IMG/VR virus record: IMGVR_UViG_3300033991_000020 | Span: 1-64,000 of that record | Source of the DNA: a virus | Direction: 5' to 3' (one strand) | DNA: 64,000 nt | Part shown: piece by piece, positions 2,633 to 45,388 of the stretch | Layout of the letters: every line of letters begins with the position of its first letter | How positions within the stretch are numbered: position 1 is the stretch's first letter | The notes under the pieces: model-generated | Database searches by the model: none | What the model was told of the DNA's origin: nothing | What the model saw: only the letters and a program-made list of their open reading frames with translations | Position numbers and translations under genes: made by a program

Positions 2633-5600
2633 ATGAAAATAAAACATTTGGATTCTTTAATGGATAAGTTACGTCCTTTTTTAACTGAGTATCTACAAGA
2701 AAATGAGACTGAATTTACCAGTACCCATTTTTCGTGTCCTCAAAGAAGTGCCCACCGTAATAATGATTATAAGCCTTCGGCAGCTTATTATCCAAATAAA
2801 GAATCTTGGAAATGTTTTGCTTGTTTTAAAGAGGGCACTCCAATTTTTACTGATAATGGTTTAGTGGATATTAAAGATATAAAAGTTGGAGATAATGTAT
2901 TGTCTATGGATGGTTGTTTTCATAAGGTAATAAATACCTTTAAAAAAGAGTTTAACGGTGAATTTATTGATATTAGAGCAACTTTGCCTTATTACGTTCA
3001 ACCAACCCACTATCATAATATGTATTATGTTAAAAAAGAGTCACATAATTTATATTATAGAGATTATACTATTTATAAAGAACCAGCTAAGAATTTGGTT
3101 GTTGGGGACTATCTCATAACCCCAATTGTCAAATTTCCAAAAAATAATTTAGAAAATACTTATCTTGATTTTGATAATAATATAACAAATGGTAAAAGAA
3201 AACTTAGAATAAAAATTGATAAAGAATTTTGTCAAGTTTTAGGCTTGTTTATTTCAGAGGGTAGTACTAATGGAGAACGAGAATCTGTTTTTTCTTTTCA
3301 TAGAGATGAAAGTAATTTAATGAAGATTATAGAAAAGTTTGCTAAAAGATATGATTTATTGGCTAGAAGATACTACAGTAAGAACTCTAAGGGAGCAAAA
3401 GTAATTATTTGTAATGCTAAGTTAGCAAAATGGTTTAAAGAAAATTGTGGTCATACTGCAAAAAATAAAAAAATACCATCACACTTTTTATCCTTTTCTC
3501 AAGAATTTTTGAAGGAAATAATAACGTATATTTATCTAGGAGATGGTTATAGAATTTCTAAACGGCAATTTTCAATTACAACAATATCAAAAGAACTAGC
3601 ATATCAATTATATTTATTAGGAGTAATGCTTTACTGGTATCCATCTATTTATATAGACTTAGAGCATTGGGGGAAAAAAGATAATATCTTTAGACAAACT
3701 GTTTATACTACACACTTAAGAACATCAGAACTTAAGGGTTCGGGTAGATTTAGTCATAAAAATTATAAAACAGGTGGATTTTATTTAAAAATTAATAACG
3801 AAGAATACTATTGTAAAAGGATTAGAGAAATAAAAAAATCTAAAGAGAAAACAATAGTATATAATATAGAAGTAGAAGATACACATAACTATTTAGTAAA
3901 TGGTGTGGTAGTTGGAAATTGTAATGAGGCGGGGGATATATTTTCCGCTTGTCACTTTATTGAGGGCCGACCTCTTACAGGACAAGGTTTTATAACCGAC
4001 AATGTGTTATATCTTGCAGATAAGTTTGGTATTCCTTATGAATTAGATGAGTATACCCCAGAAGAAAAAAAGAAAGAAGAACTCTACAAAGCTCTCGAAG
4101 ATACCTGTAAAATATGTAACCAGGTAATCAAAATAGATAATGAGAAAACTAAGAAAGTTAGGGAATATGTTTCTCAACGCCAGTGGGAAGATTTGGTTGA
4201 TATTTTTCAGTTTGGTTATTGTAATTATGAGAAGCTTATTGAGCTATTAAAGAAGAAAGGACATGCAGAGGAAGTATTAAAGGAAGTTGGACTTGTGCCC
4301 TCTGCTGAGGCAAAAGGAAATCAAGCAAAGTATTTGTTGGATAATCGTCTTTTATTCCCTATCAAAAATCATTATGGCAGGACTGTTGGATTTGCAAGCC
4401 GTAGTATAGATGAAAATTCCAATGGACAAAAATATCTAAACTCACGAAACACTGTTCTATATAATAAGACAAGTGTTCTATTTAATTTAGATAAGGCGAG
4501 GCTGAATAGTGATATTTATGTTGTTGAGGGTTATGCTGATGTTTTTTCACTGTATAAACATGGAATTAAAAATGTTGTGGCTTTATGTGGGTTGAGCTTT
4601 AATGAGGAACGTTATAAGATATTAGTAAAGCAAGGGATTACTAAAATTATATTTATGCTTGACCGAGATTCTGCGGGGAAACAAGCATTAACACGCATAA
4701 TTGATAAAGATATTAAAGGGCTTCAAGGCATAAATTTATTTGTAAAGGATATTCCAAGTCCTTATAAAGATGTTGATGAGCTTTTAGTCAAGGAAGGGAT
4801 TAAAGGATTTAATGAAATAAAGGAATTGAGTGTTTTTGATTGGAAATTATCTTTACTAAAAGAAGATTTGGAAAACGAGTTCCTTAAAAATGATGTAATT
4901 AAGTTAATTGTTTTAGAAGAGGATTACACAACCAAAGAAAAACTATGCCAAAGATTAGCTAAAGTATTAGATGTTTCAAAAGAGGCTGTAAAAAAAGAAG
5001 TAGAAAAACACGATTTATTGGATAGAGGTAGGAGATTAATTACTTCTGAAGATATACAAGAAGAGGATAAATGTTTTGAACGTGTGCTTGGGGATTGGGA
5101 TAGAAGCGTTTGGAACAGGAAAGGAAACCTACTTGGTTTAAAAGCCGATAAATTTCCATTATTTGTAAAAAAGATGGATGGCATTCAAAATATGTTTTAT
5201 ATCCTTGCGGGTGAAACGAACCTAGGAAAAACCACAATGTTATTGAACTTGGCTATGGATTTATTGCGTTCAAATGAAAATATTTTTATTTTATTTTTTT
5301 CTGTAGACGATAGTTTGGGGCAATTATTACCAAGAATAGTATCATTAAATACGGGAGTGCCTATTAATGCTATTGCTAATCCAAAATACAAAATTAAATT
5401 ACGAGAAGACTTGTCAGAAGAAGAAAAAGAAAAACTATTAAGACTTCGTGGAGGAGAAATAGAAAAGTTAAAAACAATGTCTGATAGATTTGCAATAAAG
5501 GAAGAATCCGAAGCAAAACGAATTGAACAATTATCAAAGTATATTAAAATTTATAAAAAAATTAGTGAAGGTAAACAGTTGGTTGTTTTTATTGACAACC

Positions 5601-6022
5601 TGCATAGGCTTACAAGTTATAAAAAAGCTGATACTAGAGAATTGTTTATGATGATTTCGGACCAATTAAAATATTGGAAAAATCAGTATGATATTCCTGT
5701 AATAACTACAGCAGAGCTTAGAAAAACAAATAACGTCAAACGGCCTATAGGAGACGATATTAAAGAATGCGTTGACCTTCAATTCGATGCGGATTTTATT
5801 GGACTTCTTTATGGTGATTACTACAAAAATCCTAATACAACATTAAAGTTTGTTAGAGACGTTAATTCAGAGGATGCTTTTGGCCCTATTGTAGAGTTAA
5901 ACGTTGTAAAGAATAAGACCAGTAGTTTTAAAAGTAGATTGTATTACAAATTTTATCCAGAATTGTCTAAATTTATAGAATGTACTGAAAATGAAAGACA
6001 AGAATATTTGGTAGGTAGTTAA
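2633..6022 (+). CDS. primase-helicase (T7 gp4/Twinkle type) containing an intein
   Basis: A 1129-residue precursor; about 763 residues after intein removal. Domains in order: CHC2-type zinc finger (Cys-35, His-41, WKCFA interrupted by the intein, CNEAGD), TOPRIM primase core (VVEGYADV near residue 629, then FMLDRDSAGK), and a DnaB-like RecA-fold helicase with Walker A GETNLGKTT near 859 and Walker B VVFIDN near 983. It should make primers and unwind DNA at the phage fork. The start at 2633 follows GAAAGG. The intein removes the fourth zinc ligand from its partner until splicing occurs, so primer synthesis by unspliced protein is doubtful (inference). Confidence 0.92.
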   Translation: MKIKHLDSLMDKLRPFLTEYLQENETEFTSTHFSCPQRSAHRNNDYKPSAAYYPNKESWKCFACFKEGTPIFTDNGLVDIKDIKVGDNVLSMDGCFHKVINTFKKEFNGEFIDIRATLPYYVQPTHYHNMYYVKKESHNLYYRDYTIYKEPAKNLVVGDYLITPIVKFPKNNLENTYLDFDNNITNGKRKLRIKIDKEFCQVLGLFISEGSTNGERESVFSFHRDESNLMKIIEKFAKRYDLLARRYYSKNSKGAKVIICNAKLAKWFKENCGHTAKNKKIPSHFLSFSQEFLKEIITYIYLGDGYRISKRQFSITTISKELAYQLYLLGVMLYWYPSIYIDLEHWGKKDNIFRQTVYTTHLRTSELKGSGRFSHKNYKTGGFYLKINNEEYYCKRIREIKKSKEKTIVYNIEVEDTHNYLVNGVVVGNCNEAGDIFSACHFIEGRPLTGQGFITDNVLYLADKFGIPYELDEYTPEEKKKEELYKALEDTCKICNQVIKIDNEKTKKVREYVSQRQWEDLVDIFQFGYCNYEKLIELLKKKGHAEEVLKEVGLVPSAEAKGNQAKYLLDNRLLFPIKNHYGRTVGFASRSIDENSNGQKYLNSRNTVLYNKTSVLFNLDKARLNSDIYVVEGYADVFSLYKHGIKNVVALCGLSFNEERYKILVKQGITKIIFMLDRDSAGKQALTRIIDKDIKGLQGINLFVKDIPSPYKDVDELLVKEGIKGFNEIKELSVFDWKLSLLKEDLENEFLKNDVIKLIVLEEDYTTKEKLCQRLAKVLDVSKEAVKKEVEKHDLLDRGRRLITSEDIQEEDKCFERVLGDWDRSVWNRKGNLLGLKADKFPLFVKKMDGIQNMFYILAGETNLGKTTMLLNLAMDLLRSNENIFILFFSVDDSLGQLLPRIVSLNTGVPINAIANPKYKIKLREDLSEEEKEKLLRLRGGEIEKLKTMSDRFAIKEESEAKRIEQLSKYIKIYKKISEGKQLVVFIDNLHRLTSYKKADTRELFMMISDQLKYWKNQYDIPVITTAELRKTNNVKRPIGDDIKECVDLQFDADFIGLLYGDYYKNPNTTLKFVRDVNSEDAFGPIVELNVVKNKTSSFKSRLYYKFYPELSKFIECTENERQEYLVGS
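2822..3919 (+). other. intein with LAGLIDADG endonuclease in the primase zinc finger
   Basis: Residues 64-429 (366 aa) of the primase-helicase. The N-terminus is Cys followed by FKEGTPIF, a normal intein block A. The C-terminus is VVVGN followed by extein Cys-430. Joining the exteins restores WKCFACNEAGDIFSAC, a continuous CxxC zinc finger. Two LAGLIDADG-type motifs are visible, LGLFISEGS near residue 203 and YLGDGYRI near 302, so the intein probably still encodes a homing endonuclease. The usual penultimate His is replaced by Gly, as in some known inteins. Confidence 0.9.
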
Positions 6023-6031
6023 GGAGGTTAT

Positions 6032-6073
6032 ATGAACAAAAGTAATGAGTATATTAATTTGGAGGGTCAGTAA
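6032..6073 (+). CDS. possible 13-residue leader peptide
   Basis: A tiny frame with a very strong AAGGAGG six bases before its ATG, ending TAATG so that it couples to the M16 peptidase start at 6073. The GGAGG inside it serves the next gene. It may be only a translational coupling device. Real expression is uncertain. Confidence 0.3.
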   Translation: MNKSNEYINLEGQ

Positions 6074-7233
6074 TGAATAAAATATTAATCCCTAAAGAAG
6101 GTAATTCAACGTTTACAATGCTTTATGTAAAAACTGGTAGTAGACAGGAACCCAATACTATTAAAGGTATATCCCATTTTATTGAACACATGCTTTTCAA
6201 GGGGACTCGTACTCGAACAGCCAAACAAATAGCATATGATATAGAAAAATATGGTGCACAACTAAACGCTTGGACAGATTACGAATTAACCGTTTATTGG
6301 ATTAAGTCAGCAAATAAATATAAAAAAGATGCCGAAGACATATTAATGGATATGTTGCATAATTCTTTCTTTCCACAAAAAGAAATAGATAAAGAACGAG
6401 AAGTTATTTTGCAGGAAATGAAAATGTATGAGGATGACCCACGAAGTATGGTATCAGAAATACATCAAAAAGCATTGTTTGAGGAATCAGATGGTTTATA
6501 TTTACCAATTATCGGAACAAAGCAAAGTTTGGCAAATATTGATAGAAGCACTCTCCTTGATTATTATAGAACTAACTATAAAGATTTGACATTTGTTCAA
6601 ATTGGGGATGTATCAGATTTTCGTGAAGACGTTACAAAAAGTTTAGAAACTTCAACTGTACCAACTATAAAAAATATTGTTGGTAGAAATGATGTTATTG
6701 TTAAGCGACCTGGAATAAGCCAAGCTAATGTTATTATAGGTAACATTATAAAACCCTATAAAAGCAGCAATCTTGATACTATTGTTTTAACGGATTTATT
6801 AGAAGGCATTATGAATAGTATGAGTGGGAGACTTTTCTCCAGGCTAAGAGAGGAAAATAATCTATGTTATAGAGTATATTTTGGTATGGGTATTTATAGC
6901 TGTGGTACTCCTGGTTGGTATGTTTCAATTGGTTTAGATGCCGAAAATATAAATAAAGCCTACGACCTAATCTTAGAAGAATTAACAAGAGAAATAACTC
7001 AAAAAGAAATAAATTATGCAGTAACAAAAAAGATAGGAGAAATGGCAATACAAAATGATAGTTTAAACAGCGTAGCTAATATTATTGCTTATTTAGATTT
7101 GAAAAATGTGGATTATATGGAGTATTTAAATAATTATGAAAATTTAACTAAAGCCCAAGCAGAAAATTTGCAAGAGTTTGTTAATACAATAGATTTTAAA
7201 AATAATGTAGTTACACAGTTAATTCCAGAATAG
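6073..7233 (+). CDS. M16-family zinc metallopeptidase
   Basis: 386 residues; usual M16B peptidases are about 400-430. The inverted zinc motif HFIEH (His-35, Glu-38, His-39) and the distal ligand Glu-115 in REVILQEMKMYEDDP are intact, so the zinc site looks functional. A second half resembles the inactive M16 lobe, including a segment that reads GRLFSRLREENNLCY, a typical substrate-contact region. It should cleave peptides or small proteins. It sits between the primase-helicase and a phosphoesterase, with GGAGGGT before its ATG. M16 genes are not usual phage core genes; its target is unknown. Confidence 0.88.
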   Translation: MNKILIPKEGNSTFTMLYVKTGSRQEPNTIKGISHFIEHMLFKGTRTRTAKQIAYDIEKYGAQLNAWTDYELTVYWIKSANKYKKDAEDILMDMLHNSFFPQKEIDKEREVILQEMKMYEDDPRSMVSEIHQKALFEESDGLYLPIIGTKQSLANIDRSTLLDYYRTNYKDLTFVQIGDVSDFREDVTKSLETSTVPTIKNIVGRNDVIVKRPGISQANVIIGNIIKPYKSSNLDTIVLTDLLEGIMNSMSGRLFSRLREENNLCYRVYFGMGIYSCGTPGWYVSIGLDAENINKAYDLILEELTREITQKEINYAVTKKIGEMAIQNDSLNSVANIIAYLDLKNVDYMEYLNNYENLTKAQAENLQEFVNTIDFKNNVVTQLIPE

Positions 7234-9131: not shown

Positions 9132-10838
9132 ATGGAACTTGCAAAATATTTAGACTATACTAATCTATCAAATAAAGCTACAAGACAAGAAATTAATCAA
9201 ATGATTGAAAATTGTATTAAATATGGCTTCTATGGACTTTGCATCTCGCCTTGTTGGACTTTATATGCAAAGAATAGACTAAAAAGACTTAATGCAACTA
9301 CAAAATTGATAAGTGTCCCAAATTGGGTTGCAGGGGGAGGCCTTGAACAATGTGAAGGTATCTTAGACATAGTTTGTGATGTTTGTGATGAAGTAGATTT
9401 TATTTGGAATATTTATAATTATTCTGATTTAAAAGCTTGGGATAGGGTTGAAAAAGAATTAAAAGAAATAAGAGAACTAACTAAAGGTAAAGTTTTAAAA
9501 GTTATTATTGAAGCCTATTATTTAAGAAAAATGGATGAAAATGTATATAAATTAGGATTAAATAATGTTTTTAAAGAAGCTTGTAGACTCGTTAGAGAAA
9601 GTGGTGCAGATTATATTAAATGTTTAGAAGGCTCGACCTCAATGTTAGTTAAAATAGATAACAAAATATTATATACGACAATAAAAGATTTATATGACCA
9701 TCACAAAAAAGATGTTGTTTATTTACCATCTGTAAATAAAAAAGGTCAATTTAAATGGGTAAAAGTATTAAATACAATAAAACAAGTAAATAAAAAAGAA
9801 TGTTTACAATTAAGATTATCAAACGGTTTATTTGTAACTTGTACGCAAGAACATAAACTTCCATATTTTGGTAGAACAATTCGCTATGAAAGACCTTTTA
9901 ACTATACCTTAAAGCAAACATCTGAATTTAAAAAAGGAGATTATATAGGTTTTATAAATAATTTACAGTATAATTCCTATTATAATAATGAAATTTATGA
10001 TTACAATTTGGGTTTTTTTGTTGGAGCATTTTTAGCAGAAGGAACATATTCAAAAACAAATAGAGTAAGGTTTCATTTAGGTCCAAGAGACAAAAAATCA
10101 ATTATTCCAATACTTTTAAAAGTAATTAATAAATATGGGTATAAGTATAATATATCTAAAGATAAAGGAAGTAAAGGATTTACTTTTTTTGTCAATTCCC
10201 CGATGCTTAGAGCGTTACTACAAGATTTAATAATAGGAAAAATATCTAAAACAAAACATTTATCTAATATGATTTACAATCTTCCGTTAGATTTTAGAAC
10301 AGGACTTTTAGATGGTTATTTAGAAGGAAATGCTTCTACAAAAGATAGTAAAATATATCATATTGGAATGACCAATAATAGAACGCTATTAGCAGATTTT
10401 ATCGCTCTATGTAAAACAGTTGGTTATGCTATATCTATAGGACAAAAAGATTATTATCTTATTAAATATAGAAATAAAACTTATAAAAAATTAAATTTCC
10501 AAATATATAAAAATAAAAGAAGGCCAATCGGTTTGCGACAAATTGTGGACATAAAGAGAATGAAAAAAAGATGGGTGTATGATATACAAACAGAAAAAGA
10601 TAATATTTTTTTTACAGGTTATGGTATTTTAGTTCATAACTCAGATTCTGGTTTGTTCAAACGCCCAGAATTTGAAACATTAGCTGAAGATATAAAGATT
10701 ATTAAAAAATACTCCAAAGGATTGCAGATAAAAGCTTCGGGCGGTGTTTCTACAAAAACTCAAGTTGAACAGTTAATTAAAGCAGGTGCTGATAGAATAG
10801 GGACATCTAAAGCTTTGGAGATTATAAAGGGGACTTAG
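9132..10838 (+). CDS. deoC: deoxyribose-phosphate aldolase (DeoC) containing an intein
   Basis: 568-residue precursor; about 228 residues after splicing, the normal DeoC length. DeoC converts 2-deoxyribose-5-phosphate to glyceraldehyde-3-phosphate and acetaldehyde through a lysine Schiff base. Visible family segments: KYLDYTNLS, LCISPCW, ISVPNWVAGG, KVIIEAYYL, and after the intein QIKASGGVSTKTQVEQLIKAGADRIGTS (given in parts: KASGGVST, GADRIGTS). The Schiff-base Lys corresponds to Lys-163 in GADYIK, immediately before the intein. Followed by a nucleoside-deoxyribosyltransferase-like gene, suggesting deoxynucleoside salvage or host-DNA breakdown. AAAGGAG precedes the ATG. Confidence 0.9.
   Translation: MELAKYLDYTNLSNKATRQEINQMIENCIKYGFYGLCISPCWTLYAKNRLKRLNATTKLISVPNWVAGGGLEQCEGILDIVCDVCDEVDFIWNIYNYSDLKAWDRVEKELKEIRELTKGKVLKVIIEAYYLRKMDENVYKLGLNNVFKEACRLVRESGADYIKCLEGSTSMLVKIDNKILYTTIKDLYDHHKKDVVYLPSVNKKGQFKWVKVLNTIKQVNKKECLQLRLSNGLFVTCTQEHKLPYFGRTIRYERPFNYTLKQTSEFKKGDYIGFINNLQYNSYYNNEIYDYNLGFFVGAFLAEGTYSKTNRVRFHLGPRDKKSIIPILLKVINKYGYKYNISKDKGSKGFTFFVNSPMLRALLQDLIIGKISKTKHLSNMIYNLPLDFRTGLLDGYLEGNASTKDSKIYHIGMTNNRTLLADFIALCKTVGYAISIGQKDYYLIKYRNKTYKKLNFQIYKNKRRPIGLRQIVDIKRMKKRWVYDIQTEKDNIFFTGYGILVHNSDSGLFKRPEFETLAEDIKIIKKYSKGLQIKASGGVSTKTQVEQLIKAGADRIGTSKALEIIKGT
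9621..10640 (+). other. intein with LAGLIDADG endonuclease in DeoC active site
   Basis: Residues 164-503 (340 aa) of the DeoC precursor. It starts with Cys-164 (CLEGSTSML) and ends ILVHN, with Ser-504 as +1 residue, so the penultimate His and terminal Asn are canonical. Endonuclease motifs are VGAFLAEGT near residue 297 and GLLDGYLEGN near 395. Ligation restores GADYIKSDSGLF, equivalent to the DeoC motif around the catalytic lysine. Confidence 0.9.
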
Positions 10839-16562: not shown

Positions 16563-17201
16563 ATGCCAGAGAACCAAAAACAAAATAATGTAGACTTCTT
16601 AGATGATTTTGTAGTAACAGTAAGAAAGGCAAAGAGTAATGAAGATAGGCCCCTTTTACCAGAGTTGACTTGGCTACCAGCTGTAATTAAACAAATCAAG
16701 AAGAAACAACTACCGAAAAGCCAAAGTGTTCGGGCTCATTTTACATTTATTATCAGCTCTGGAAAATACAAAGACCAATATGCTTGGGGGTCTGTCCCAT
16801 TGCATGAGGAAATAACCGAAAAGGCCGACCTTTACAGATGGTTATGCAATATTCTTGGCAAGACGGAGTTAGATGTAGAAGAAAATGTACGTATTGGTGA
16901 TTTAGTTGGCAAAAGAGTTGAAATTATGGTCAAAAATACAAAGGTTGGAACTAAGACTTATCAAAATGTAACTGAAGTAAAGGCACAAGAGGAAGTTGAA
17001 TCCGATGAGGCTTCTGTGGAAACCGAAAAACCAAAACAGGTTACTAAACCCGTAGCAACAATAAAAGCTCCTGTAAAGACCGTTACAAAGCCAGCCCCTA
17101 AAAAAGAAGTTGTTGAAGAAGAGCCAGAAGGTGCAGACTTAAATGTAGAGGAAGTTGCAGAGCCAACAGACGAAATATCAGAAGACGATTTACCCTTTTA
17201 G
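16563..17201 (+). CDS. SSB-like single-stranded DNA-binding protein
   Basis: 212 residues. The N-terminal 140 residues look like a beta-rich OB-type domain (HFTFIISSGKYKDQYAWGSV, then RIGDLVGKRVEIMVKN). A Lys/Pro/Glu-rich linker follows, and the protein ends EDDLPF, the acidic C-terminal tip typical of bacterial and phage SSBs that recruits partner proteins. Sits between the coiled-coil gene and the RuvC/RecA genes. The fold is inferred from strand pattern; the tip is direct evidence. Confidence 0.75.
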   Translation: MPENQKQNNVDFLDDFVVTVRKAKSNEDRPLLPELTWLPAVIKQIKKKQLPKSQSVRAHFTFIISSGKYKDQYAWGSVPLHEEITEKADLYRWLCNILGKTELDVEENVRIGDLVGKRVEIMVKNTKVGTKTYQNVTEVKAQEEVESDEASVETEKPKQVTKPVATIKAPVKTVTKPAPKKEVVEEEPEGADLNVEEVAEPTDEISEDDLPF

Positions 17202-17260
17202 TTTAAAAAGTGTTAAAAAAGTATAGTCAAACTAGGCAATTTTAACAAAATATAAACCAA

Positions 17261-17384
17261 AGAAGTTTGTATGGCGAAAATAGACGCAAGGTGTCGCCCC
17301 GAAAAGCATAGTTCAGAGAATGTGCGGTATCTGAATCTGTCCTGACATGAGGACGTGTAGGTTCAAATCCTACTACAAACTTCT
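17261..17384 (+). ncRNA. tRNA-like structured RNA with oversized core
   Basis: An 11-bp perfect outer helix (AGAAGTTTGTA at 17261-17271 with TACAAACTTCT at 17374-17384) directly abuts a canonical T-arm, GTAGG-TTCAAAT-CCTAC at 17357-17373. A T at the position of U8 and a possible 4-bp D-like stem (GCGA/TCGC) follow the 5' strand. Between them are GTCCT/AGGAC and TTCAGA/TCTGAA hairpins. Taken as a tRNA it would be about 117 nt with no standard 7-nt anticodon loop and no encoded CCA, so it may be an atypical or decayed tRNA, or a tRNA-mimicking RNA. It lies between the SSB-like and RuvC-like genes. Confidence 0.6.
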
Positions 17385-17403
17385 TTTATAGGTTTGGAGA
17401 CTA

Positions 17404-18036
17404 ATGAAAGTTTTGGCTTTAGACGTATCCACTAGCACAACAGGGTTTGCGGTTATTAATAATAATTTTAAATTATTAGAGTATGGACAGTTTTCTATAA
17501 AAGATAGAACATTATCCGATACCATGTATACTGTAGAAATTACGGATAAGGTCCTGGCTTTAACTGAAAAGTATAAAGTTGATGCTATTATAATTGAGGA
17601 TATTTTTTGTGTAGACCCAAAAGTTTTTAGGAGATGGGCTAGGGTACATGGTGGTATGGCTATTACGTGGTATAAAAAGACTAAGAAAGAACCCGTATTT
17701 ATGATGGCTGTATCGGCTAGACCAAAAACTAATATAAGTGGAAAAGCTTCTAAAATAGAGGTTCAATTAGAAATATCCAAAAGATACAACCTTGTTGATA
17801 AAGTTATTCTTAGCAAATATTTAAAAGCATTCAATACCTTAATAGAAGAAAAAGAAAATAAGATTAAAGCCATAGAAAAAGAAATTAAGGATAAAAAGAA
17901 ACAAGCAGAAGAAAAAAAGAAGATAAGTGGTAAATTTAAGTATGCTGTAAGTAAGCTAAGTGAGGATTTTGAGAAGGTAGGGATTTCGGAGCACCAAGCA
18001 GATGCAATAGTTTTAGGAATAGCTTTTTTTAAATAG
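17404..18036 (+). CDS. RuvC-like Holliday junction resolvase
   Basis: 210 residues with an RNase H/RuvC-type core: first acidic strand LALDVSTSTTGFAV, second IIIEDIF, and the terminal acidic helix EHQADAIVLGIA. A charged helical insertion lies at residues 140-180. It should cut branched recombination or replication intermediates, consistent with the RecA-like and resolvase-like genes downstream. TTGGAG precedes the ATG. Confidence 0.8.
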   Translation: MKVLALDVSTSTTGFAVINNNFKLLEYGQFSIKDRTLSDTMYTVEITDKVLALTEKYKVDAIIIEDIFCVDPKVFRRWARVHGGMAITWYKKTKKEPVFMMAVSARPKTNISGKASKIEVQLEISKRYNLVDKVILSKYLKAFNTLIEEKENKIKAIEKEIKDKKKQAEEKKKISGKFKYAVSKLSEDFEKVGISEHQADAIVLGIAFFK

Positions 18037-18563: not shown

Positions 18564-19562
18564 ATGGGAAAATTACAAGAATATATAAATAAGTACAATA
18601 AGGATTTAGCTGGCTCAATCATTAAGTTGAGCGATAGTCCCTATACTGGCATAGAACGAGCCTCTACAGGGTCGTTTTCATGCGATATTAGTGTTGGTGG
18701 GGGTCTTCCATGTTCCAGCATTATAGAGCTGTTTGGAGAAGAAAGCACAGGAAAATCGCTTTTAAGCCTCAAAACCATAGCAACCGTTCAAAAAAAATTT
18801 GATAAAGATTGTGTTTATATAGACTTGGAGGGAGCTCTTACAAAAGAATGGGCCACAAAAGTTGGAGTAAACCCAGACAAACTGTACATTGTTCGACCTA
18901 AAACAGCAGAAAAGGCTTTAGATACTTTGATAGACCTAGTATCAAGTAAAGAGGTGGGAGTTGTTGTTGTAGATTCTGTTTCTGCACTATGCCCAATTGT
19001 TGAAACAGAAGAAAGCTTGGAAAAAAATCAAATGGGAGTAGCTGCCAGATTAATGAGCAAAACTTTACGTATTTTAGCTTCGACGTTACAACCAGAAAGC
19101 TTAACGGATAAAGAAAAATATAATCCCTGTATTGTAATATTCATTAATCAAACAAGGCGTTTAATTGGGATTCTTTATGGAAGCAACCTTACAACATCTG
19201 GAGGAAACGCTTTAAAATTTTATAGTAGTGTTCGTATTCATCTTAAAAAAGGCGATACGTTAAGAAATGAGGCAAAAAGCGCAATAGGTCAAAACATTAA
19301 ATTTACAGTAGTAAAAAATAAAACATATAAGCCATTACAAGTAGGCGAATTTTCTTTTTATTATGATGGACGTATTGACAATGAAGAATCTATTATTAAT
19401 TATGCGATTGCTTTTGAACTGATTAAACAAAAAGGGGCGTGGGTTTATTTGGATGACAAAAAATTCCAGGGAAAAGAAGCAGTTGTTGAATACCTAAAAA
19501 AAGATAGTAAAGCAATACTAAAACTAAAAAAAGATATTATTGATATAGTTAAAAAGGATTAA
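18564..19562 (+). CDS. RecA/UvsX-like recombinase
   Basis: 332 residues. Walker A GEESTGKS at 58-65, Walker B GVVVVDSVSAL near residues 132-142, then the L1/L2 regions (MSKTLRILAS, FINQTRR, TTSGGNALKFYSS), the last being the RecA DNA-binding loop with its Gly-Gly-Asn-Ala-Leu signature. It should form filaments on single-stranded DNA and drive strand exchange. It is close to bacterial RecA in length. No LexA-like partner is seen. AAAGGAA precedes the ATG. Confidence 0.92.
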   Translation: MGKLQEYINKYNKDLAGSIIKLSDSPYTGIERASTGSFSCDISVGGGLPCSSIIELFGEESTGKSLLSLKTIATVQKKFDKDCVYIDLEGALTKEWATKVGVNPDKLYIVRPKTAEKALDTLIDLVSSKEVGVVVVDSVSALCPIVETEESLEKNQMGVAARLMSKTLRILASTLQPESLTDKEKYNPCIVIFINQTRRLIGILYGSNLTTSGGNALKFYSSVRIHLKKGDTLRNEAKSAIGQNIKFTVVKNKTYKPLQVGEFSFYYDGRIDNEESIINYAIAFELIKQKGAWVYLDDKKFQGKEAVVEYLKKDSKAILKLKKDIIDIVKKD

Positions 19563-19563
19563 T

Positions 19564-20016
19564 ATGAGTATTTGTAGAAAAGACTGTAAATATAATAAGA
19601 ATAATTTTTGTAGATATTATAAAAATTCAATATTGTGCTTACAGGGTAATGATACTTATTGCTTAGCATATAAAAAACAAATTGAAAAGCCCGTTAGAAA
19701 CCAAATAAAGAGAAACTCAATTAAACAAGAAAAGAAATTAGCAAAAGACTTGGGTGCTAAAAGGCAACCTCAAAGTGGTGCGAAAGATGCGGCTCCTGCT
19801 GATATGATTAAGGGTAATTATATTATTGAAAGTAAAGCGACGAATAAAGATAGTATAGTTTTACATAAAGAATGGCTAGACCAATTAAAACAATCTCCGA
19901 TTAACTACGGAAAAGTGCCTACATTAATAATAGATTTTACGAAAACAAATGATAGATATGTAGTGTTAGATATGGTAGATTTTCAAAAAATAATTAAAGG
20001 AGAATCCAATGAATAA
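19564..20016 (+). CDS. Holliday-junction-resolvase-like PD-(D/E)XK nuclease with Cys-rich N-terminus
   Basis: 150 residues. Residues 1-40 contain six cysteines (CRKDC, FCRYY, LCLQG, YCLAY), probably a zinc or Fe-S module. The rest has a nuclease core: QEKKLAKDLGAKRQPQSGA, then PADMIKGNYIIESKAT, giving the Asp and Glu-x-Lys of the PD-(D/E)XK fold as in Hjc-type resolvases. It follows recA-like by 1 bp. Whether it cuts junctions or other DNA is unknown. Confidence 0.72.
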   Translation: MSICRKDCKYNKNNFCRYYKNSILCLQGNDTYCLAYKKQIEKPVRNQIKRNSIKQEKKLAKDLGAKRQPQSGAKDAAPADMIKGNYIIESKATNKDSIVLHKEWLDQLKQSPINYGKVPTLIIDFTKTNDRYVVLDMVDFQKIIKGESNE

Positions 20017-20444: not shown

Positions 20445-20800
20445 TGAAAATAGCTGTTATAGGCTCAAGAGAATTTAAAGATTTTAAATTTGTAAAAGAT
20501 ACTGTTATTACAGCCTTTTATTTAAATGCGCCTTTATGTGGTAATGAATTTGTTAGTGGAGGAGCAAGAGGGGTTGATACTTGGGCTGAAGAATGTATGA
20601 CACACCTCACTCCAAAGCATATTTTTAAACCTGAGTGGGATAAATATGGTAAACGAGCAGGATTCATAAGAAATCAATTAATAATAAATGAAGCAGATAA
20701 AGTTATAGCCTTTTGGGATGGTTCAAGTTGTGGCACTAAGAATTCAATTGATTTAGCTATTAAAGCTGGCAAACCTATTGATATTTATGTGAGATATTAA
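20444..20800 (+). CDS. SLOG/DUF2493-family nucleotide-binding protein
   Basis: 118 residues with the complete family pattern: VIGSREFKDF near the N-terminus, SGGARGVDTWAEE in the middle and RNQLIINEADKVIAFWDG. DUF2493/YAcAr proteins belong to the SLOG superfamily, which senses or processes nucleotide-derived ligands; several members act in antiviral or conflict systems. In phages the role is not established. Coupled to genes on both sides. Confidence 0.82.
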   Translation: MKIAVIGSREFKDFKFVKDTVITAFYLNAPLCGNEFVSGGARGVDTWAEECMTHLTPKHIFKPEWDKYGKRAGFIRNQLIINEADKVIAFWDGSSCGTKNSIDLAIKAGKPIDIYVRY

Positions 20801-21267
20801 TGAAAGAACTGATTTTAATCGTAGCCAACGTAGGAGAAGGAAAAACAACCTTAGCTAAAAAATATCAAAAGAAGGGTTATGTTGTAATTAGCAAGGATAG
20901 TCTTCGTTATTGTATCGGGGCTGGAAACTATATTTATAATTATAAATATGAACCTATTATTTGGAAAATTGAAGAACGTATGTTAGAAGCTTTTATGGAA
21001 TTAGGTGTTAATATTGTAGTAGATTCTATTTGCGTTTCTAAAAGAATTAGGAAACGCTATATTAATATAGCTAAATATAATAATTATAAAGTAAAATGTT
21101 ATATTTTACCTAAATTATCTATGAAAGAAGCAGTAGACAGGAGAATGCAAAATCCGCATGGCCAATATAATAGAAGCATTTGGAGAAGGGTTTGGAAACG
21201 TTTTGATAAAGTATATGAGGAACCCAAATTATCTGAGGGTATAAATAAAATTATTAAGGGGGTATAA
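20800..21267 (+). CDS. P-loop kinase, polynucleotide-kinase-like
   Basis: 155 residues. Walker A ANVGEGKTTLAKKY at the N-terminus, SKDSLRY (the Asp used by PNK-type kinases), VVDSICVSKRIRKRYI, and a lid motif with Arg pair (DRRMQNPHG). This matches the kinase domain of T4 Pnk-type enzymes. No phosphatase domain is attached, so it could phosphorylate 5' ends but not remove 3' phosphates. A nucleoside or small-molecule kinase is an alternative. Confidence 0.7.
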   Translation: MKELILIVANVGEGKTTLAKKYQKKGYVVISKDSLRYCIGAGNYIYNYKYEPIIWKIEERMLEAFMELGVNIVVDSICVSKRIRKRYINIAKYNNYKVKCYILPKLSMKEAVDRRMQNPHGQYNRSIWRRVWKRFDKVYEEPKLSEGINKIIKGV

Positions 21268-25600: not shown

Positions 25601-27306
25601 TGATAGCCAAATATCTGCACCTACATAATTTCTACAGCCATACTGATACAGAACTTGCCTTTGATAAGGAGATTTACTCTATTATTGGTAAAATCGAAGG
25701 GAGTAATAAGAGCAACGGGAGTGGCAAGACTTCTTTAGTAAGGGGTATTAATTTTGCACTGTGGGGCGACGCAACTGAATCTGAAAAAAGCGGGCGTAAT
25801 TTACAAGTAAAAGGTGATGCTTTAATCTATAATGATGCTGATGAAATGGAAGTTACTTTTGGCTTTGCAATGAATGAAAATGAGTATGAGATTAAACGTA
25901 CTTTAAAGAGGGGTTCTACTGCCTCAGTTTATATTTCTAAAAATGGAGAAAAACCCTTAAAGTATGGAGTTAAAGATGGCCAAGAAGTCATAGAAAAAAT
26001 ATTAGGCACTAACTATGAAATATTTAAGAATACAAGTTATTTTCAGCAGGGAGATTTAAATTCTTTTTCTAAACTAACACCTAAAGCAGCTAAAGATGTT
26101 GTAATGAGTATTCTTCAATTGGATGTTTATAGCAACTACGAGCAAGCTGTAAAGGACCAGGTTTCTACAGTAAAAGACAAGATACAAGGATTAGATAGCA
26201 GACAAGCCACATTAGAGGAAATGATTAAGAAACAAAAAGAAACACAACAAGAATCCAAATATTCACAAAAAGATTTAAAACAAGTTGAAGATGAAATAAA
26301 TGAAATGTCTTTTAGTAGGCAATTAGAAAATTTTTGGGAAGCCTCTAAAACTAAAAGTTTGGACTTAATTGATAAGCAAAGAACTGAACAACAGCAAAAT
26401 TTAAGTAAGGTTGAAGCTGAAATTAATTTAATAGACCAACGGGTTAGAAAATTAGAAAAACTTTCTGGCGTAAAGAAATGTCCAACCTGTGAACAGGAAT
26501 TAAAAGAAGAGGACATTAAAGCCATTATCCAAGTTCTTAAAACTGACCTAAACAATAGAATCCCAAAAAGAAACCAATTAAAAAAAGCATTACTAACCAT
26601 AGATAAAGCTAAAGCAGAAATAAGAAGTTACTCTTTATCATTATATGATGAATCCTTAGCTCTGGAAAAGAATAGAAAGCTGTCTGAAATCAAAACAGAG
26701 CTTAAAAGAGCTACGCAAGATAAATCAAAGTTAGCAGATTTAATTAAGGAAAATAATAAGGTTATTGAAAACGTAAAACAAGAGAAAGAATTACTTAGTA
26801 AATACAAAAAACTACAGGAGGCGTTTGGACGTAATGGTATTCCTGCTCATATTATAGAGCATGTTATACTAGAAATAGAAGAAACTGCAAATGATATTTT
26901 AACAGGCCTAGATACTAATATTCGTATTTCTATTGAGAGCCAAAAAGATTTAAAAAGTGGGGGCAAAGCAGAAACATTGGACATAAATGTAATTACGCAA
27001 TATGGAGAAAGGCCTTATGCCAATTATTCTGGTGGAGAAAAAACCTTTATAGATTTTGCCATTAGGATGGCTTTATCTATCATTTTGTCGAGGCGTTCAA
27101 ATTGTCAAATACAAACATTAATATTAGACGAAATTTGGGAAAATTTGGATGCGGTTAATAGGAGTTTGGTAACTAGAGCTATTAGTTGGATTAAAAACAA
27201 ATTTGATTTCAAAAGAATATTAATAATATCACACCAAGAAGAGCTAAGAGACGCCTTTGAAAATACTATTAAAGTATATTTTGATGGGAGGAAAAGTTAT
27301 GTTTAA
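25600..27306 (+). CDS. SbcC/Rad50-like ATPase (T4 gp46 type)
   Basis: 568 residues. Walker A NKSNGSGKTS near residues 36-45, a coiled coil, the zinc hook CPTC at 294-297, ABC signature YSGGEKT near 476 and Walker B TLILDEIWENLD. The coiled-coil arms are short, as in phage gp46. It should pair with the SbcD-like protein as a DNA-end processing complex. Overlaps the previous stop by one base. Confidence 0.92.
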   Translation: MIAKYLHLHNFYSHTDTELAFDKEIYSIIGKIEGSNKSNGSGKTSLVRGINFALWGDATESEKSGRNLQVKGDALIYNDADEMEVTFGFAMNENEYEIKRTLKRGSTASVYISKNGEKPLKYGVKDGQEVIEKILGTNYEIFKNTSYFQQGDLNSFSKLTPKAAKDVVMSILQLDVYSNYEQAVKDQVSTVKDKIQGLDSRQATLEEMIKKQKETQQESKYSQKDLKQVEDEINEMSFSRQLENFWEASKTKSLDLIDKQRTEQQQNLSKVEAEINLIDQRVRKLEKLSGVKKCPTCEQELKEEDIKAIIQVLKTDLNNRIPKRNQLKKALLTIDKAKAEIRSYSLSLYDESLALEKNRKLSEIKTELKRATQDKSKLADLIKENNKVIENVKQEKELLSKYKKLQEAFGRNGIPAHIIEHVILEIEETANDILTGLDTNIRISIESQKDLKSGGKAETLDINVITQYGERPYANYSGGEKTFIDFAIRMALSIILSRRSNCQIQTLILDEIWENLDAVNRSLVTRAISWIKNKFDFKRILIISHQEELRDAFENTIKVYFDGRKSYV

Positions 27307-44048: not shown

Positions 44049-44200
44049 AAAAAATAACTTTTAAAAATACCTATGAATGTACACATTGTAAACGAAAAAT
44101 AACAGGGTCTGTAGATAAATGTCCCGTTTGCAAAAATAAAATAATTAAAATAGAAGAACAACAACCATTGCTAACTATACTTAAAAGGGTTAAAAAATGA
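44045..44200 (+). CDS. zinc-ribbon protein (51 aa)
   Basis: ECTHCKRKI and KCPVCKNKI make a four-Cys zinc ribbon. ACGGAG-like SD precedes the ATG, and it overlaps the deformylase start by 4 bp, so both are co-translated. Role unknown. Confidence 0.65.
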   Translation: MKKITFKNTYECTHCKRKITGSVDKCPVCKNKIIKIEEQQPLLTILKRVKK

Positions 44201-44616
44201 TTTGTACTGATTTAAAAATATTAAGACAAGTAAGTAAGCCTTTTAAGCGTTCCCAAAAAGAGTTAAAAGAATTAATTGCCATACTAGAAAAAGAATTAGC
44301 AGAATCCAAAATACCTGGAGTAGGTCTTAGTGCAATACAAATAGGAATACCTTTACAAATAGCTATTATAAGAACAAGGGATTTAAAACTTGATTTATAC
44401 AATACTGATATAATTAAAATGAATGAACATTTTATATTTAATAATGAAGGTTGTTTATCTACTCCAAATATATTTAAAGATACCCTACGTTTTAGAACAA
44501 TTCAAATAAAAAATGGAGACGGTTCTATTATAACTTTGGAAGGCTATAATAGTGTAGTTGTACAACATGAAACTGACCATTGGAATGGTGTATTATTTAT
44601 TGATAGAATCATCTAA
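44197..44616 (+). CDS. def: peptide deformylase
   Basis: 139 residues. All three motifs are intact: GVGLSAIQIG, EGCLSTP and QHETDHWNG. It removes the formyl group from nascent proteins, using a metal held by the Cys and two His. It lacks the long C-terminal helix of cellular deformylases, as phage forms do. With methionine aminopeptidase (30532) it completes N-terminal methionine excision. Confidence 0.93.
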   Translation: MICTDLKILRQVSKPFKRSQKELKELIAILEKELAESKIPGVGLSAIQIGIPLQIAIIRTRDLKLDLYNTDIIKMNEHFIFNNEGCLSTPNIFKDTLRFRTIQIKNGDGSIITLEGYNSVVVQHETDHWNGVLFIDRII

Positions 44617-44779: not shown

Positions 44780-45388
44780 ATGACTAAAAAACCAAATAAT
44801 TCTTTTCTTGACCATGCAATTCATTTTCACGAAACTAATCTACATATGTCTACTAGAACTATATATTTTGGTAGTGTTGGAGTAGACAGTAACACTGATA
44901 GTGATGAAGTAAATTGTAGAACAGTTGGTCAATTAATCAAAAATTTACATATATTAGAAACTAAAGAAATCGGTCCTATTTCCCTTCTACTTAATACTCC
45001 TGGAGGTTCGTGGGAAGATGGAATTGCTGTCTATGATTTACTTAAAAGTTTAAAATCAGAAGTAACAATTATAGGAATGGGCAAAATATGGTCAATGGGA
45101 AGTATTATTTTTCAAGCTGGAAAAAAAAGAGTCCTATTGCCAAATACAACAATTCTTATACATGATGGAACAGATGGTTATATTGGTGATGCAAAGTCCT
45201 TTGAAAACTGGGCTGAAGATTCAAAAAGAGTAAGAAATATTATGTATAACATATATTATGATGGAATGAAGAAAAAGAATCCAAAAATTACCTTAAAAGA
45301 TATTGAAAATATGTGTGCACATGATAAAATTCTTAATGCAGAAGAAGCAATAAAAATAGGTTTAGCAGACGAAATAATAACAAAATAA
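44780..45388 (+). CDS. ClpP-like serine protease
   Basis: 202 residues. LLLNTPGGSWEDGIAVYDLL, the nucleophile region IWSMGSIIFQAGKKR (Ser-105), His-128 in TILIHDG, and the acid region ILNAEEAIKIGLADEI match ClpP. GGSWEDG replaces the ClpP GGSV-x-x-G. ClpP-like enzymes in phages are often prohead proteases, but no capsid gene is next to it; a host-ClpP-like role with a cellular ATPase is the alternative. Confidence 0.85.
   Translation: MTKKPNNSFLDHAIHFHETNLHMSTRTIYFGSVGVDSNTDSDEVNCRTVGQLIKNLHILETKEIGPISLLLNTPGGSWEDGIAVYDLLKSLKSEVTIIGMGKIWSMGSIIFQAGKKRVLLPNTTILIHDGTDGYIGDAKSFENWAEDSKRVRNIMYNIYYDGMKKKNPKITLKDIENMCAHDKILNAEEAIKIGLADEIITK

Follow-up and report, generated by a model that had tools for sequence, protein, structure and literature searches.

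The 64,000-nt window of viral DNA analyzed here, which is part of a 64,775-base virus record, contains, at positions 17259-17386, an element with the anatomy of a leucine tRNA (tRNA-Leu) from which the anticodon arm is missing. The same architecture is found in more than 100 phage sequences, and compensatory changes are seen in relatives of the element. We lean, if only slightly, to the view that this phage RNA derives from tRNA-Leu, does not decode, and acts as a natural "tRNA scaffold" with a structured insert as its working part. If such RNAs are made, phages have independently invented the tRNA scaffold of the laboratory, a nuclease-proof shell with another RNA at the position of the anticodon.

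The case is of wider interest than a single element of the window. Standard annotation misses or miscalls these elements: ARAGORN reports nothing in the window, neither a tRNA at the element nor a tmRNA, assigns the label "tRNA-Glu" to an element in another phage (L041), and the annotation of Bacteroides phage BS-TP2 is without the feature. Hence, the elements are hidden in many sequenced phages, one culturable isolate included. They also offer a testable handle on the purpose of tRNA-like phage RNAs such as T4 RNAC.

Anatomy of the window element

The order of parts in the element is that of tRNA-Leu, namely, acceptor-like helix, D-arm, oversized core, variable hairpin, U48, and T-arm. These features and the two flanking genes are as follows.

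16563-17201, + strand: upstream gene, 212 aa, with an acidic tail ending in DDLPF, ssb-like by look only (ORF translation)
17259-17271, + strand: acceptor-like helix, 5' strand (13/13 pairs with 17374-17386)
17272-17287, + strand: U8 and the bacterial tRNA-Leu D-arm signature TGGCGAAAATAGACGC (sequence, pattern match, comparison with host tRNA-Leu)
17288-17337, + strand: core of 50 nt in place of the ~18-nt anticodon arm (anticodon-arm test)
17306-17335, + strand: possible H-type pseudoknot in the core (pairing of two crossing helices)
17338-17355, + strand: class-II (Leu-like) variable hairpin TGTCCT-GACATG-AGGACG (minimum-energy fold, pairing 6/6)
17356, + strand: U48, which pairs with A15 in tRNA-Leu (sequence)
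17357-17373, + strand: T-arm GTAGG-TTCAAAT-CCTAC (Rfam tRNA alignment)
17374-17386, + strand: acceptor-like helix, 3' strand TACAAAC-TTCTTT (pairing, sequence)
17404-18036, + strand: downstream gene, RuvC-like Holliday-junction resolvase (PHROG 159, Pfam RuvC)

The outer helix, described in the original prediction as 11 bp long, is real and perfect but comprises 13 bp, with AAAGAAGTTTGTA (17259-17271) and TACAAACTTCTTT (17374-17386) pairing at 13 of 13 positions. In the tRNA frame, positions 1-7 of the acceptor helix correspond to GTTTGTA (17265-17271), and six more paired bases, AAAGAA, are found 5' of them. Perfect 13-bp inverted repeats with arms 40-200 nt apart occur only twice in the 64-kb window and, unlike the acceptor-like helix, the second of these repeats is made of A and T only. 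The discriminator is T (17381), that is, U73 and not the A73 of LeuRS identity, and CCA is not encoded at the 3' end of the element. The Leu signature TGGCGAAA..TAGACGC (17272-17287) stands at the tRNA-correct spacing from the acceptor; the D-stem has 3 bp (GCG/CGC), the D-loop is shortened, and G18G19 are absent from the element. An alternative D-stem, with GGCGA (17273-17277) and TCGCC (17294-17298) pairing 5/5, is possible. The T-arm deserves the description "textbook" that it had been given: all five pairs are formed, the T-loop is consensus, and the arm abuts the acceptor as in tRNA. The Leu D-arm signature and the Leu-like variable hairpin had previously gone unnoticed.

From acceptor to acceptor, the element measures 116 nt versus ~85 nt for a class-II tRNA; hence, the center is oversized, as originally stated, but the excess is ~31 nt rather than ~40 nt. 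All of this excess sits between the D-arm and the variable arm, where 50 nt (17288-17337) are found versus the usual ~18-20 nt. The claim that this region offers no clear 7-nt anticodon loop is borne out, in that no canonical anticodon arm (5-bp stem, 7-nt loop, U33, R37) was found in it. As for a tRNA with an insertion, every single contiguous deletion of 17288-17337 leaving 18-20 nt was enumerated, with any anticodon allowed, and none yields a 5-bp/7-nt anticodon arm with U33 and R37, so that a normal tRNA model with a short intron does not fit; no Rfam match to a group I intron was found in the window. Since no single deletion restores the anticodon arm and the cores of the relatives are hypervariable and structured and do not represent a common intron, a spliceable insertion is unsupported.

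Two crossing helices in the core form a candidate pseudoknot: h1 consists of GCATA (17306-17310) and TGTGC (17321-17325), with 5/5 pairs, and h2 of TTCAGA (17312-17317) and TCTGAA (17330-17335), with 6/6 pairs. The nested minimum-energy fold contains h2 without h1, and the pseudoknot of the window element is not significant on its own, as 13 of 40 shuffles score as well. Next to the T-stem, the window element has the closed variable hairpin, and the candidate pseudoknot is separate from it.

Statistically, the element as a whole stands out by its folding (z = -3.1; one of 200 shuffles is as stable) and by the combination of the Leu D-arm and T-arm pattern, which is matched in none of 100 shuffles of the window. 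The covariance-model search that had been proposed along with the original prediction succeeds, if only barely: the Rfam tRNA model (RF00005) scores 29.5 bits against a cut-off of 29, with 61 nt unmodelled and an E value of 0.045 when 64 kb are searched or 1.5e-4 when the 216-nt region is searched. In terms of a functional, decoding tRNA-Leu, the acceptor, D-arm, variable arm, U48, and T-arm are present, and the anticodon arm, A73, and G18G19 are missing. In terms of the non-decoding phage group considered below, the element has a Leu D-arm and T-arm in register, a 7-bp acceptor, an oversized core, U48, and no anticodon arm.

Recurrence in phages and compensatory changes

The group was collected with a pattern consisting only of the Leu D-arm, an oversized gap, and the T-arm, acceptor pairing not being required. 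At least 119 elements in viral contigs match this pattern; among the 119 listed, the acceptor pairs at the exact register 7/7 in 96 and 6/7 in 7. Among the matches listed, 103 viral elements thus have a paired acceptor; A73 is present in 81 of these, and a canonical anticodon arm in none. The same anticodon-arm test is positive in 23 of 26 host-genome tRNA-Leu genes found by a looser pattern. U48, which is not imposed by the pattern, is found in 79 of 83 dissimilar viral elements. The search pattern has no bearing on acceptor pairing, A73, U48, the core helices, or the lack of an anticodon arm; the likeness of the window element to the group otherwise rests on the Leu-type scaffold that the pattern requires. 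Because the group was found via the Leu-type D-arm, relatives with other D-arms are undercounted; some elements with AGTCAGG acceptors (see below) and other D-arms were observed.

A similar pattern, applied to 84,980 bacterial and archaeal genomes, yielded 109 stretches; many of these are normal tRNAs that have a long variable arm, or tandem duplicates, and were therefore left out of the phage class. Taken together, the viral and the bacterial/archaeal scans assign the group to phages and to certain prophage-like regions, with many cases from Bacteroidota. One stretch of a bacterial assembly (L306, ~2158-2265) resembles tRNA-Leu(CAA) with a 26-nt hairpin inserted between the anticodon stem and the loop. 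In several phages, the element is the sole match to the tRNA family, and several elements sit inside tRNA arrays. A common downstream gene was sought and rejected: thymidylate synthase, terminase, methyltransferase, and other genes follow the elements, with at most 2 of 71 alike. The cultured isolate BS-TP2, a phage of Bacteroides salyersiae BG8, carries one element, unannotated, at ~19550-19657 of its sequence (PQ571275.1) and 21 nt from the gene for NinG, so that in both BS-TP2 and the window the element precedes the gene of a Holliday-junction nuclease (NinG and RuvC-like, respectively). No described precedent for such non-decoding phage tRNA-Leu-like RNAs was found in the open-licence literature, and this phage class of tRNA-shaped RNAs is apparently undescribed so far.

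The dominant scaffold, AGTCAGG-T-...-CCTGACTA, is found in 35 of the 44 phage records checked, with up to 6 elements per record by exact pattern and none in the reversed-pattern control. In one phage (L159), up to seven AGTCAGG varieties form a single cluster that adjoins real tRNAs in a tRNA array. The cores of the AGTCAGG elements differ widely in length and sequence, and some elements bear further structured inserts in the D-loop; the elements at 4212-4391 of L159 and at 90396-90513 of another phage (G066) combine such a second insert with an oversized core. The AGTCAGG acceptor is not among the tRNA-Leu genes of the seven host genomes inspected, where acceptors such as GCCCAGG and GCTCGAA are found, and a single one of 22 genomes contains the scaffold.

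BS-TP2 and two relatives have cores with a common pair of crossing helices, in which h1 (GAGTA/TACTC) is invariant and h2 is formed by unrelated strands, AGCTTT/AAAGCT, TTGTAA/TTACAG, and TAATCAC/GTGATTA, that nevertheless pair 6/6, 6/6, and 7/7, respectively. In another set of relatives (group B: L121, L136, L151, L191, and L354), 27 of 27 pairs are kept in all 5 sequences, with double changes at 6 pairs (4 in the acceptor, 1 in the T-stem, and 1 in the pseudoknot helix h2), versus 30-47% of pairs kept and 0-1 pairs with double changes in slid controls. To judge from these alignments, two subfamilies have compensated pseudoknots that replace the anticodon arm, and the relatives are under structural constraint as RNA genes without a decoding arm. 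A helix ending beside the T-stem is found in 62% of 82 dissimilar cores compared to 27% of shuffles and 30% of chimeras. Global pseudoknot scoring over all cores is weak (mean z -0.65), and we therefore do not claim a pseudoknot in every core; the cores are so different that functions may differ between the elements.

The compensatory changes that the original prediction had suggested looking for in related phages are thus found in relatives but not for the window copy, which is without covariation because the collections searched contain nothing closely homologous to it. Single-query searches with the RuvC-like, polymerase, and UvsX proteins failed to bring up useful relatives of the window phage. 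An alignment of the polymerase led to 80 distant phages (at best 33-35%), and of these L041 alone has an element resembling that of the window; at 5842-5937 of L041, the tRNA-Leu-like gene that ARAGORN labels "tRNA-Glu" has an anticodon loop of ~15 nt. A 16-base core pattern from the window gave unrelated coding matches only, and blastn of the window region against known phages gave short chance or T-arm matches only. D-loops without G18G19 were found at three further loci, two of them with paired acceptors, and the cores at these loci are not similar to that of the window. With no G18G19, with U73 and a 13-bp acceptor, and with no close homologue, the window copy is, by sequence comparison, a divergent relative or outlier of the phage group.

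Proposed function and alternative explanations

As a non-decoding scaffold RNA, the element would keep the tRNA parts that are read by the processing and stabilizing machinery of the cell, namely, the acceptor, U8, D-arm, variable arm, U48, and T-arm, and the anticodon arm would have been exchanged for a larger structured insert. The tRNA shell would then yield a small, well-defined RNA that resists nucleases; the insert, which is a pseudoknot in the testable relatives, would be the working part displayed at the anticodon's place. It is by inference that we take the RNA to be produced and stable and its insert to be the functional part, with a putative binding partner. In the engineered "tRNA scaffold", which is based on tRNA-Lys3, a structured RNA is likewise inserted for the anticodon arm and the product is stable in vivo in E. 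coli (PMC3753655); that scaffold is man-made, whereas the phage design is apparently natural. With an insertion unsupported and decay unlikely as a general explanation, "mimic" is the nearest of the three readings originally offered, the engagement of tRNA enzymes or ribosomes being the conjectural part of it. More speculatively, and with distinctly less confidence, phages could carry a large unrecognized class of RNAs in which a constant tRNA-Leu shell is combined with fast-evolving pseudoknotted inserts, several per phage, that act in trans, e.g. as mimics of Leu-tRNA that are charged but do not decode, or as inhibitory RNAs directed at host factors; the window element would be a divergent member of this class.

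Decay, which was one of the original suggestions, would mean that a phage tRNA-Leu gene is drifting after the loss of its anticodon arm and of the guanines in its D-loop. The absence of G18G19, A73, and CCA, the score of only 29.5 bits to the tRNA model, and the occurrence of a single window copy without close relatives are all compatible with decay, which may apply to this single copy. However, drift should erode the helices evenly, yet the acceptor retains 13/13 pairs, the T-arm 5/5, and the variable arm 6/6, with a fold z of -3.1, and 103 phage elements have likewise lost the anticodon arm while retaining acceptor pairing, U48, and, for the most part, A73, so we consider this account of the window element unlikely. 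As a general explanation, simple decay is improbable, given that over 100 phage sequences share the architecture, some phages having several copies, and that compensatory changes accompany it.

Somewhat less probable still is a cis-acting role, with the element forming a tRNA-like structure in an mRNA between the ssb-like and ruvC-like genes and serving as an RNase P/RNase Z site or a translational operator. The genomic setting speaks for such a role: the element fills part of a 202-nt gap between two co-directional genes, the second of which starts 17 nt 3' of the acceptor-like helix; this helix reaches across the usual cleavage sites; a consensus scan found no forward promoter-like site; and the BS-TP2 element is similarly placed just upstream of the NinG gene. 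Analogues are known, namely, the thrS operator and RNase P/Z processing at tRNAs within polycistronic transcripts. Among the genes concerned, the RuvC-like one matches PHROG 159 (E = 2.3e-8) and Pfam RuvC (E = 4e-4, just short of the Pfam cut-off); the upstream gene has no PHROG or Pfam match, so that its ssb-like (single-stranded-DNA-binding) name is tentative. Against a cis element, the downstream genes of the relatives are mixed, the family as a whole thus not tracking a gene, and several relatives are inside tRNA arrays. Still, the window copy itself may remain embedded in the ssb-like/ruvC-like transcript; its lack of G18G19 and A73 and the uncommon length of its acceptor helix would fit a copy in decay as well as a cis element.

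A leucyl-tRNA mimic that is charged by the host LeuRS and titrates or diverts leucine, EF-Tu, or a tRNA-directed defense appears quite improbable, even though the Leu-type D-arm, the long variable arm, and the A73 of most relatives would suit it. Recognition by bacterial LeuRS relies on A73, the elbow, and the variable arm, the anticodon being neither read nor needed, so that leucylation is plausible for those relatives that have A73 and G18G19. For the window copy, with U73, no G18G19, and a 13-bp helix, leucylation is unlikely; furthermore, the AGTCAGG scaffold starts with A1-U72, unlike the listed host tRNA-Leu genes, all but one of which have G1-C72. Phage tRNAs can counter tRNA-cutting defenses, and a change of the anticodon abolished the rescue from retron-Eco7 by a phage tRNA (PMC11555353). 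As this rescue depends on the anticodon, the very target that these RNAs have lost, a decoy for anticodon nucleases is a weakened model.

The weakest reading, already disfavored and hardly credible, is that of an attachment-site remnant, a piece of tRNA-Leu that would direct integration into the tRNA-Leu gene of a host. Integration at tRNA genes is common, but the window record, which may be incomplete, has no match to tyrosine integrase (PF00589), and the element has both halves of the acceptor, complementary to each other, where an attP would have only one end of a tRNA.

Known tRNA-like RNAs and other features of the window

With phage and bacterial tRNA-Leu (class II, RF00005), the window element shares the acceptor, U8, the Leu D-arm, the long variable arm, U48, and the T-arm; it differs in having no anticodon arm or G18G19, in U73 and the 13-bp acceptor, in being 31 nt longer, and in receiving no ARAGORN call. 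In principle, tmRNA and YrlA are the nearest known systems. Like the window element, tmRNA (RF00023) has a tRNA-like end domain with a T-arm and an acceptor, the anticodon arm being replaced, and its pseudoknots have counterparts in the relatives of the element. Unlike tmRNA, the window element is Leu-like rather than Ala-like, possesses a real D-stem, has no message or tag, and is far shorter, and no RF00023 match was found in the window at the gathering threshold or at E<=5. One phage (L102) has a separate tmRNA, at 5468-5866, near its tRNA-like element.

The YrlA Y RNA (RF02553; partner Ro60/Rsr) is a noncoding mimic of the D- and T-arms of tRNA and is described as being modified by tRNA enzymes (PMC8394870). 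Its 5' and 3' ends, however, form a stem that binds Ro60, whereas those of the window element form the acceptor, and RF02553 has no match in the window record, nor does any match in 11 other records exceed the cut-off. One phage (G069) has, at 25843-25952, a sub-threshold YrlA-like match (35.3 bits versus a cut-off of 69) that lies apart from the numerous tRNA-like elements of this phage; G069 also has a TROVE gene. The window contains no Ro60/TROVE gene. Of 79 phage records with an element, 5 have a TROVE gene, versus 0 of 38 comparison records, but we claim no link between TROVE and the elements, as the numbers are too small and the two record sets differ too much in size and in tRNA content. 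In L146 (2319-3041, 689-2230, - strand), a TROVE gene lies just downstream of two AGTCAGG elements at the end of a tRNA array.

RNAC and RNAD of phage T4 (species 1 and 2 RNAs) are also small, stable phage RNAs; they have been validated by Northern blotting (PMC9697503), and the function of RNAC is still given as unknown (PMC9697503, PMC3014915). The T-arm of RNAC is genuine and is kept by compensating changes in two of its three relatives, but RNAC is without a Leu D-arm, and its acceptor pairing is not conserved among these relatives; no sequence similarity or acceptor homology between RNAC and the window element was found, the T-arm alone being common to both. Plant-virus tRNA-like structures, which are located at the 3' ends of RNA genomes and have pseudoknotted acceptors, are again viral RNAs that mimic tRNA and include pseudoknots, whereas the elements considered here belong to DNA phages and have an ordinary acceptor duplex.

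Elsewhere in the window, two adjacent genes (1063-2305) match the Mom DNA-modification family (Pfam PF25680), which suggests that the phage DNA is modified. Judging from the translations, the primase/helicase-like (2633-6022) and DeoC-like (9132-10838) genes both apparently contain inteins, and M16 peptidase-, peptide deformylase-, and ClpP-like protease genes are located at 6073-7233, 44197-44616, and 44780-45388, respectively. A gene for a Zeta-toxin/AAA_33-like kinase is found at 20800-21267.
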